Origin: a virus
IMG/VR virus record: IMGVR_UViG_3300033182_000964
Location: 1-32,646 of that record
Reading direction: 5' to 3' (one strand)
DNA: 32,646 nucleotides
Part shown: piece by piece, positions 16,905 to 18,830 of the stretch
How the letters are laid out: the number at the start of each line of letters is the position of its first letter
Numbering within the stretch: the first letter of the stretch is position 1
The notes under the pieces: model-generated
Seen by the model: the letters and a program-made list of their open reading frames with translations, nothing else
What the model was told of the DNA's origin: nothing
Database searches by the model: none
Translations under genes and position numbers: made by a program

Positions 16905-17359
16905 TGAAATTGTTTGAAGAACTTGAAGATGATGAAGTCTTAGAAGAGGAGGATAACACCAAAGAAACCTACTGCCCATTTAAATTCTTTTTGAATTCTA
17001 TAAATAATACTAAAAAAAATGTCTTACTAGAAGACACTAACGGAAAAATTGAAGAAGCTTACAATTCTTACATTATAAATAAAACTTTATCATATTTTCC
17101 TGATACTATTATGCAATGTAATACAGTCAATATGTATTTTGATTTAGATAATAAATTGAAGTATGACTTTTTACTAAATAGTATTAGAAAGAGAAAAAGA
17201 TTTACCCCTTGGGTTAAATCTACTGCCGAAGAAAATATAGAAGTTATAAAGATGTATTTCAATGTAGGAAATGAAAAAGCCAATGAAATATTATCTTTAC
17301 TTAACGAAAACCAAATAAATAAAATAAAAGAGCAGTTAAGTAAAGGTGGTAGGGAGTGA
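16904..17359 (+). CDS. 62: gp62 clamp loader small subunit
   Basis: This 151-aa protein is shorter than T4 gp62 (187 aa), like other marine homologues. It has an acidic N-terminus, YCPFKFFLNSIN, then YIINKTLSYFPDTI and a conserved basic stretch SIRKRKRFTPWVK. It is the non-ATPase subunit that completes the clamp-loader ring with gp44. It is placed between 44 and regA with overlaps on both sides (TAATG and GTGA), so its synthesis is probably coupled to theirs. Confidence 0.88.
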   Translation: MKLFEELEDDEVLEEEDNTKETYCPFKFFLNSINNTKKNVLLEDTNGKIEEAYNSYIINKTLSYFPDTIMQCNTVNMYFDLDNKLKYDFLLNSIRKRKRFTPWVKSTAEENIEVIKMYFNVGNEKANEILSLLNENQINKIKEQLSKGGRE

Positions 17360-17754
17360 ATGAAGAAATAGAACTTTTAAGAGAATTAGTAGAAGTTAGG
17401 TTGAAAAAACCAGAAGACTTTTTAAAGATTAAAGAGACTCTGACAAGAATAGGAATCTCTTCGAAAGATAAAAAACTCTTTCAATCTTGTCATATTCTTC
17501 ACAAAAAGAGTAAGTATTATATAGTTCATTTTAAAGAGTTATTTAAACTTGATGGAAAACCTTGTGATATATCAATCGAAGATATTCAAAGAAGGAACGC
17601 AATAGCTTGTCTCTTAGAAGAGTGGGATTTACTTGAAATAGTTGATAAATTAAAAGTTGAAGATAAAATTCATATAAGAAAAATGAAAATTATCCCTTTC
17701 AGAGAAAAACGTGAATGGGAATTAATTCCAAAATATAATATTGGAAAAAGCTAA
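17356..17754 (+). CDS. regA: RegA translational repressor
   Basis: This 132-aa protein is strongly similar to T4 RegA (122 aa): LKKPEDFLKIKETLTRIGI, SCHILHKKSKYYIVHFKE, and an ending WELIPKYNIG. RegA binds start-codon regions of early mRNAs, including those of replication genes in T4, and blocks their translation. The likely start is GTG at 17356 overlapping the gene 62 stop (GTGA). This gives about 15 extra N-terminal residues compared with T4, and no ATG lies closer to the conserved part. Confidence 0.95.
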   Translation: MNEEIELLRELVEVRLKKPEDFLKIKETLTRIGISSKDKKLFQSCHILHKKSKYYIVHFKELFKLDGKPCDISIEDIQRRNAIACLLEEWDLLEIVDKLKVEDKIHIRKMKIIPFREKREWELIPKYNIGKS

Positions 17755-17763
17755 TAAATAATA

Positions 17764-17792
17764 TTGACAAACATTTAAATTTATGTTATTAT
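17764..17792 (+). promoter_or_regulatory. Sigma70-like promoter for hsp20
   Basis: TTGACA, 17 bp, TATTAT, with TGT before the -10. A transcript would start near 17799, leaving a 5' leader of about 75 nt before the hsp20 ATG. Confidence 0.85.
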
Positions 17793-17802
17793 AAAAATAA
17801 CA

Positions 17803-17832
17803 CTTAGAAATGCTGAAGGTCGGGTTTCTAAG
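17803..17832 (+). other. 5'-proximal hairpin in hsp20 leader
   Basis: CTTAGAAA and TTTCTAAG form a perfect 8-bp stem around a 14-nt loop (17811-17824). It would lie only about 4 nt from the expected transcript 5' end. Confidence 0.65.
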
Positions 17833-17851
17833 TTTTGTGAAAATGAATGAC

Positions 17852-17867
17852 TTGCTTAATAAAGGAG
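17852..17867 (+). promoter_or_regulatory. Candidate ROSE-like RNA thermometer masking the hsp20 ribosome site
   Basis: UUGCU (17852-17856) can pair with the ribosome binding sequence AGGAG (17863-17867) as U-G, U-A, G opposite G, C-G and U-A, with one more U-A pair (17857-17862) and a loop AAUA. UYGCU opposite the Shine-Dalgarno with a G-G mismatch is the hallmark of ROSE thermometers, which control small heat-shock genes in bacteria. Here too the gene is a small heat-shock gene. The pairing is short and seen by eye only. Confidence 0.45.
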
Positions 17868-17873
17868 TTAAAA

Positions 17874-18284
17874 ATGCAAATGTCTAAATTTTTTGAATTG
17901 GCTATCATAGATAGCATGACTGACGGATGGAACTTTAGGAGTTCTGAATCAAATTATTACCCACCACACAATGTGTTAAAATTATCTGATGATAGTTTTG
18001 CTCTAGAATTTGCTGTGGCAGGATTTAAACAAGAGGAACTGGAAGTTCTTCTGGATAAAAATACACTCGTTATATCTGGTAAAAAGAAATCGGATAACGA
18101 ATCACAAATAACCGATGCTTCTTATCATTACAAAGGTATATCGACAAGAAGTTTTAAAAAATCTTTTCAATTGGAAAAGTATTTGGAAGTCACTAATGTT
18201 TCTCTATCTGATGGTATATTAAAAATTCTTCTAGAAAGAATAGTACCAGAAGAAGAAAAACCTAAAATTTTGACGATAAGTTAA
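17874..18284 (+). CDS. hsp20: Hsp20 small heat-shock protein
   Basis: This 136-aa protein has the alpha-crystallin domain: FALEFAVAGFKQEELEVLLDKNTLVISGKKK, then RSFKKSFQLEKYLEVTNVSLSDGILKILLER, and a C-terminal tail with PKILTIS, holding an I/L-x-I-type motif used for oligomer assembly. It is an ATP-independent chaperone. Marine T4-like phages often carry it near regA; a role in virion assembly or stress is inferred. The ATG at 17874 has AAGGAG at 6-nt spacing. The upstream in-frame ATG at 17847 has no ribosome site and is rejected. Confidence 0.93.
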   Translation: MQMSKFFELAIIDSMTDGWNFRSSESNYYPPHNVLKLSDDSFALEFAVAGFKQEELEVLLDKNTLVISGKKKSDNESQITDASYHYKGISTRSFKKSFQLEKYLEVTNVSLSDGILKILLERIVPEEEKPKILTIS

Positions 18285-18295
18285 TTTTTAATAAA

Positions 18296-18319
18296 GTGGG
18301 AAGGGTAAAATCTTCCCAC
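18296..18319 (+). terminator. Hairpin after hsp20, possible terminator
   Basis: GTGGGAAG pairs with CTTCCCAC (8 bp) around an 8-nt loop, 11 bp after the hsp20 stop. No T run follows, so termination may be weak; it could also protect mRNA ends. A late promoter starts at the next base. Confidence 0.6.
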
Positions 18320-18327
18320 TATAAATA
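18320..18327 (+). promoter_or_regulatory. T4-type late promoter TATAAATA for amidase
   Basis: This exact box ends 5 bp before the ATG at 18333. With T4 spacing the transcript would begin at or next to that ATG. Confidence 0.6.
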
Positions 18328-18332
18328 AACTG

Positions 18333-18830
18333 ATGGTACATGCAAATTTTATTTTACTTTTAACAATTTTTTTAACAAGTGGTTTTTATTCAGATTTTAT
18401 TTTCGAGAAACCTACTAGAACTGTTAAAAAAGTTTTCATTCATTGTAGTGACAGTGATTGGAGACACCATGATGATATATCAGTGATTAGAAAATGGCAT
18501 GTACAGGAAAAGGGGTGGTATGATGTTGGATATCACTACTTCATAAAAAAGAATGGAACAATTCAGAAAGGTAGGAATTTAGAGTTCACACCTTCATCAC
18601 AAAAAGGTCACAATTCTAGAACTATATCTATTTGTCTGCACGGAAAAGAAAAATTTACTGAAAGGCAATTTGAATCATTAAGAAAATTATGTCTAGAAAT
18701 ATATAGAGCATATAACGGTAGAATAACTTTTCATGGGCATAGAGAAATTACAGATGAGAAAACTTGTCCGAATTTTGATTACGTTGAAGTTCTTAATTTA
18801 GACGAACATGGACGTATGAAGGGAATATAA
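18333..18830 (+). CDS. N-acetylmuramoyl-L-alanine amidase (PGRP/T7 lysozyme type)
   Basis: This 165-aa protein has an Amidase_2/PGRP domain from about residue 32. Zinc ligands are His37 (VFIHCS), His136 (HGHRE) and Cys145 (TCPNFD); GYHYFI (Y67, H68) and GRN follow the family pattern. The first 20 residues are strongly hydrophobic (ANFILLLTIFLTSGF), which suggests a signal peptide or signal-anchor; the n-region lacks basic residues, so export may be atypical. It would cut the bond between muramic acid and the stem peptide, acting as an endolysin. No ribosome site is visible, and the late promoter would give a leaderless mRNA. Confidence 0.9.
   Translation: MVHANFILLLTIFLTSGFYSDFIFEKPTRTVKKVFIHCSDSDWRHHDDISVIRKWHVQEKGWYDVGYHYFIKKNGTIQKGRNLEFTPSSQKGHNSRTISICLHGKEKFTERQFESLRKLCLEIYRAYNGRITFHGHREITDEKTCPNFDYVEVLNLDEHGRMKGI

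Follow-up and report, generated by a model that had tools for sequence, protein, structure and literature searches.

Does a phage gene for a small heat-shock protein carry its own translational switch, and if so, what does the switch sense? The question is raised by hsp20 in the 32,646-nucleotide stretch of DNA analysed here (hereafter the window), a 32.6-kb virus record of a marine T4-like phage with T4-like genes in a T4-like order. A sequence-only reading had proposed a ROSE-like RNA thermometer in the leader of this gene. Our best explanation, to which we assign a probability of about 0.74, is that a short two-hairpin ROSE-like element restrains translation of the phage Hsp20, and that heat would open the weak hairpin that holds the Shine-Dalgarno (SD) sequence.

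The hsp20 gene and its surroundings

The hsp20 gene (positions 17874–18284, plus strand) encodes a small heat-shock protein of the IbpA type, as indicated by Pfam HSP20 (E 9.8e-16) and PHROG 432 Hsp20 (E 1.5e-33). The sequence-only reading was therefore right to place its candidate before a small heat-shock gene. The N-terminus MQMSKFFEL is conserved in relatives, supporting the start codon at 17874. Another in-frame ATG, at 17847, lies within the leader and has no SD.

The upstream neighbour of hsp20 is regA (17356–17754, plus strand; Pfam Translat_reg, E 3.5e-43), which was called by Pfam; the other T4-like genes of the window were judged from the translations of their open reading frames. 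The order regA–hsp20 is also found in cyanophages S-PM2 and S-CRM01, and no hsp20 lies beside regA in HTVC008M and Mosig, the nearest Pelagibacter phages by regA. On the 3' side of hsp20, an inverted repeat (GTGGGAAG..CTTCCCAC) occupies 18292–18328. It is followed by a T4-late-like box, TATAAATA, just 5' of an amidase gene at 18333.

Fold of the leader

The hsp20 leader is 75 nt long (17799–17873, plus strand) and is assigned as a ROSE-like element by its folding, by a covariance-model match at 17804–17871 and by a sub-threshold match to Rfam ROSE_3. Hairpin 1 (17802–17833, plus strand) is composed of 17802–17811 and 17813–17816 paired with 17820–17833. It is stable, with a computed energy of −11.4 kcal/mol at 37 °C when folded alone. 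A perfect 5' hairpin had been claimed for 17803–17832; the hairpin stands but its perfection does not, since G17812 is bulged.

Hairpin 2 (17848–17870, plus strand) resembles a thermosensor. In the fold, 17848–17853 and 17855–17857 pair with 17862–17870, and G17854 is bulged opposite the SD. UUGCU (17852–17856) faces AGGAG and AAUA (17858–17861) forms the loop, as the sequence-only reading had described; that reading placed a G-G mismatch in the stem. The hairpin is weak (computed −3.0 kcal/mol at 37 °C when folded alone). The SD, AGGAG (17863–17867, plus strand), was recognized by its sequence six bases 5' of the AUG at 17874. It is the only SD in the leader and is located inside hairpin 2, where both UUGCU and the pairing are intact.

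Judged by its own sequence, the leader is modestly, indeed barely, beyond chance. The fold has a z-score of −2.43, and 6 of 200 shuffles are equally stable; about 10% of the 75-nt stretches in the window fold as well as the hsp20 leader. In addition, the expected chance count of U(U/C)GCU with a subsequent AGGAG is 0.75 for the window. These values are in line with a trivial explanation, in which an AT-rich leader with an ordinary strong SD happens to fold into these hairpins. Because a window of this length can yield such a motif and such a fold energy by chance, the case for the element rests on its relatives.

Conservation of the motif in phage hsp20 leaders

Six Hsp20 proteins served as queries against viral contigs; together with annotated phage records, this gave 169 distinct leaders. 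Single proteins were used to find the loci because phage Hsp20s diverge too much for a common profile to serve. The motif U(U/C)GC[U/G] faces the SD in 163 of these leaders, compared with 8 of 151 control leaders, which belong to other SD-led ORFs on both strands of the same contigs, some of them probably not genes. Three of the motif-positive controls (L284, L287, and L290) are hsp20 starts missed by the filter and one (L046) belongs to a second small heat-shock gene, so that the control rate is about 4/147 after removal of small heat-shock genes. None of the 12 control leaders from the window itself has the motif.

The six exceptions among the hsp20 leaders comprise L001 and L012 of the window's sister clade, in which the paired copy is AAGAAG; two Vibrio phages with longer spacing; a Salicola phage with CUGCC; and L134, whose leader looks unrelated. 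Relatives without UUGCU or without the pairing, which the sequence-only reading would have held against a thermometer, are thus few, and nearly all phage hsp20 leaders retain the motif together with the two hairpins. Three leaders (L271, L274, and L291) have three hairpins, the extra one lying between hairpin 1 and hairpin 2.

Covariation of the two hairpins

We built a covariance model, R2, from 14 leaders of other phages, leaving out the window and its sister clade and giving the structure by hand. An earlier model, R1, was dropped: its RNAalifold structure had 6 pairs only and its SD region was misaligned. In the window, R2 matches 17804–17871 with 30.1 bits (E 6.3e-8), and the next-best site has E 0.18. 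In all 11 larger records searched (nine from phages and two Pelagibacteraceae genomes), the top match is the leader directly 5' of hsp20, and the best match elsewhere has E 0.016.

Alignment A8 contains 82 matches. Standard pairs make up 94.7% of its pair cells, as against 73.8% after shuffling and at most 64% with the partners slid, and the covariation score is 0.527 vs 0.169. Changes on both sides occur in 14 of the 16 pairs, including all 9 pairs of hairpin 1. As A8 is fitted to the model and leans towards R2, permutation tests based on anchors were run independently. No pairs were counted on mixed-group MAFFT alignments (A2 and A4–A6), in which the hairpin arms of some rows are shifted by one or two bases.

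For hairpin 1, the bulged-G module served as the anchor for the rows of 73 representatives. Counted outward from the bulge, pairs two to five are formed in 74–95%, compared with 43–47% for permuted 3' arms, and all Watson-Crick types occur. At the third pair inside the bulge of hairpin 2, U-A occurs 60 times and A-U 7 times, and outer pairs four and five are above permutation. Hairpin 2 is mostly invariant and covaries little, since the SD is constrained in its own right. The covariation that had been suggested as a check in related phages is therefore strong in hairpin 1 and modest in hairpin 2. The two hairpins have a bulged-G module, YGC/GG, in common; in hairpin 1 this conserved module contains the bulged G17812.

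Conservation, covariation, and the covariance-model matches together refute the chance fold, to which we give practically no weight. The distribution of the leader also bears on regA, which encodes a translational repressor and lies directly upstream of hsp20 in the window, S-PM2, and S-CRM01, a position that would suit a leader targeted by RegA. However, the same leader occurs where regA is not adjacent to hsp20 (P-SSM7, P-SSM4, Melnitz, and PA5oct), as well as before genes of Pelagibacteraceae and of the Pseudomonas type. We therefore reject binding by RegA as a very improbable explanation.

Relationship to known ROSE elements

Leaders of Pseudomonas ibpA are proven thermometers with a two-hairpin plan. 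Hairpin II melts from 25 to 42 °C and hairpin I stays folded; hairpin II alone suffices, and hairpin I is unneeded for heat regulation (PMC3669281). The cyanobacterial thermometer of Synechocystis hsp17 has been described as a single short hairpin (PMC3669281).

The phage leaders are kin to the short ROSE element of Pseudomonas ibpA (RF02523, ROSE_3; Krajewski et al. 2013, PMC3669281). Both have two hairpins only, in a leader of 60–75 nt before a small heat-shock gene, with a stable 5' hairpin containing a GAUGCC..GGGUC core and a 3' hairpin in which U(U/C)GCU faces the SD. The phage leaders differ in being AT-rich and less stable, in scoring below the Rfam cut-off, and in residing in lytic phage genomes, where many copies lie behind T4-late-like boxes. 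The enterobacterial ibpA thermometer ROSE_2 (RF01832) likewise has the motif, in the form UCGCU, facing the SD before ibpA. The window leader combines three features of the ROSE-like class: it precedes a small heat-shock gene, its U(U/C)GCU 3' hairpin pairs imperfectly with the SD, and its stable 5' hairpin is conserved.

In a short-stretch search, the window leader scores 22.1 bits with Rfam ROSE_3, below the gathering cut-off of 43; in a whole-window Rfam search there was no ROSE match with E up to 10. Other phage leaders are below 43 bits as well (L006, 31.0; Methylophilales phage Melnitz, the best phage, 34.1). The positive control, the Pseudomonas-type leader L034 from a record named Pseudomonas phage Y7, scores 69.2 bits. 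Recognition is reciprocal: with the phage-built R2, L034 scores 29.6 bits (E 9.5e-8). The ROSE_2 element of L046 was not reported by R2.

Two of these leaders come from records marked UNVERIFIED. The ROSE_3 leader of the Pseudomonas ibpA type at 540–606 of L034 is perhaps host DNA. L046 (Campylobacter phage A18a) has an enterobacterial ROSE_2 at 463–535 (100.4 bits) together with ibpA-like genes; these sequences probably stem from the host or from a contaminant.

The hsp20 genes of Pelagibacteraceae have the same leader as the phages. In a tree of 63 Hsp20 proteins, the window groups with its sister clade (100/100), and most phage proteins are apart from the cellular ones, with many unsure forks. 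Because of this separation, the leader looks old in phages and not recently captured. The leader of L363, on a Nonlabens contig, resembles that of the cyanophage-type L114. At L295/L296, in a Rhodobacteraceae metagenome-assembled genome, L295 shares its leader with the phage-type L271, and the L295 protein clusters with the Hsp20s of phages. Both cases are likely phage contigs within bacterial assemblies.

Promoters and the sister clade

A candidate sigma70-type promoter (TTGACA-17-TATTAT; 17764–17792, plus strand) precedes the leader. It matches the consensus at 11 of 12 positions, has TG before the second hexamer, and predicts an RNA start at about 17799; sites of this kind number 8 in the scanned region vs 4.5 in shuffles. 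A T4-late-like TAAATA box lies 5' of hairpin 1 in 33 of the 73 representatives; nine have a sigma70-like site, and 31 have neither pattern. Thirty of the 33 TAAATA boxes end 8–12 bases before the bulged G, which would place the RNA start at the base of hairpin 1. The hsp20 leader is retained across phages though promoters vary.

The closest relatives of the window, the sister clade L001–L013, have two SD-like copies in the leader. In 10 of 11 tested, UUGCU pairs with the upstream copy and the true SD is free; in L001, two pairings compete. The paired AAGAAG of L001 and L012 is a poor SD, and the pairing is nevertheless retained. As modelled, the hairpin is conserved in this clade without conservation of SD occlusion. 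In L001–L012, inverted repeats (for example CTGACTTTTTAGTCAG or CTAGTGTATACTAG) are found between the TTGACA box and hairpin 1; positioned between a −35-like box and the leader, they are possibly an operator.

The free downstream SD of the sister clade raises the possibility that the thermometer is degenerating in the window's clade, and that the hairpin serves mainly to stabilize the 5' end of an RNA from which Hsp20 is made constitutively. The stability of hairpin 1 and the promoter boxes, which put it at the RNA 5' end, fit such a role. However, the window has no second SD, unlike the sister clade; its only SD lies in hairpin 2, and UUGCU and the pairing are intact. We regard degeneration as improbable.

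Predicted response to temperature

When the leader is folded without coding sequence, the computed accessibility of the window SD (calculated on GGAGU, 17864–17868, one base off AGGAG) increases from 0.02 at 10 °C to 0.14 at 42 °C. Inclusion of 40 coding bases gives an increase from 0.15 to 0.29, whereas the curve is flat or slightly falling with 12–20 coding bases. The computed melting of the window leader is therefore not decisive, as it depends on the coding length included. Across the family as a whole, warming from 15 to 42 °C raises the predicted median only slightly, from 0.30 to 0.34. In the predictions, the SDs of phage hsp20 genes are paired to a greater extent than control SDs, with a median unpaired value of 0.31 vs 0.50 at 25 °C (p 2e-6).

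The predicted energy of a 26-nt piece containing hairpin 2 is −3.8 kcal/mol at 37 °C, close to the −4.7 kcal/mol of the Pseudomonas ROSE_3 control. Removal of the bulged G17854 would lower it to −7.6 kcal/mol. Nearest-neighbour rules describe the unusual pairs of ROSE hairpins poorly.

Heat or Hsp20 as possible signals

In E. coli, Cedecea, and Vibrio, IbpA binds the ROSE-type leader of its own gene and uses R93 to repress translation; lysine is no substitute for this residue, and self-repression requires positive charge at 97 and 98 too (PMC10474464). The phage locus resembles this E. coli system (PMC10474464) in the kind of gene, the leader, and the key arginine, which makes binding by the phage protein a candidate. 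The window Hsp20, which reads GISTRSFKKSF in this region, keeps the leader-binding arginine of IbpA, and both hairpins carry the bulged-G module. We therefore weighed feedback by Hsp20 beside heat.

In its strong form, this explanation holds that Hsp20 binding is the main function of the leader: free oligomers would bind both hairpins and block synthesis, and misfolded protein would titrate Hsp20 away, making the leader a sensor of protein damage during infection and not of heat. Arginine occupies the position of R93 in 175 of 186 phage Hsp20 proteins, and arginine or lysine occupies position 97 in 181 of 186. Melting of hairpin 2 needs no YGC/GG module in hairpin 1, where one is nonetheless present. 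Hairpin 1 is conserved though its counterpart is dispensable for heat regulation in Pseudomonas (PMC3669281), and the sister clade retains the UUGCU hairpin where the SD is no longer covered. However, the remaining 11 of the 186 proteins have lysine at the position of R93, and position 98 is rarely basic. The presence of R93 is itself weak evidence, as this position is conserved more widely among small heat-shock proteins. Moreover, feedback is compatible with temperature sensing, and E. coli does both. We consider a leader that serves mainly for Hsp20 binding possible, though with the odds against it. A broader version is rather doubtful. It views phage hsp20 leaders as an old ROSE-like family built on one bulged-G module in both hairpins, which would chiefly sense damage through Hsp20 binding and not heat, with the sister clade as a rewired form in which the SD is uncovered.

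Translational restraint by a two-hairpin element that heat opens is the reading we prefer. Hairpin 1 would cap the RNA near its 5' end and remain folded. On the model of the proven Pseudomonas thermometers, UUGCU of hairpin 2 would pair with the SD in cool cells, leaving one G bulged or mispaired, and keep ribosomes off; we infer that the SD is occluded in this way in the cell. Warming, and possibly also a shortage of free Hsp20, would open hairpin 2, and Hsp20 would be made. This supply would help the phage when proteins misfold in infection. Control of the SD through the leader is likely, and heat is most likely the trigger. Feedback by Hsp20 is a serious rival or partner, and might count as much as heat.

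Discussion

The element is of a known kind, a ROSE-like translational control element, and is apparently unreported in phages. In literature searched short of most subscription journals, we found no report of a ROSE-type thermometer in a virus or of an RNA thermometer before a phage hsp20 gene, a provisional result; two papers on cyanophage small heat-shock proteins mention neither leaders nor thermometers. The novelty suggested for a phage-borne thermometer thus holds as far as earlier reports are concerned, but it is not special to this phage. The leader is the rule for phage hsp20 genes: nearly every one examined has it, those of cyanophages included. For annotation of such leaders, the sequence model R2 can be used.

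As the leader is conserved across deep branches of phage Hsp20, it would be under selection during infection. The infections in which that selection would act often take place in seawater, within a narrow temperature range. The phage leaders may therefore be a clean natural setting in which to separate heat from chaperone shortage as the signal sensed by ROSE elements, or to show that both are sensed.
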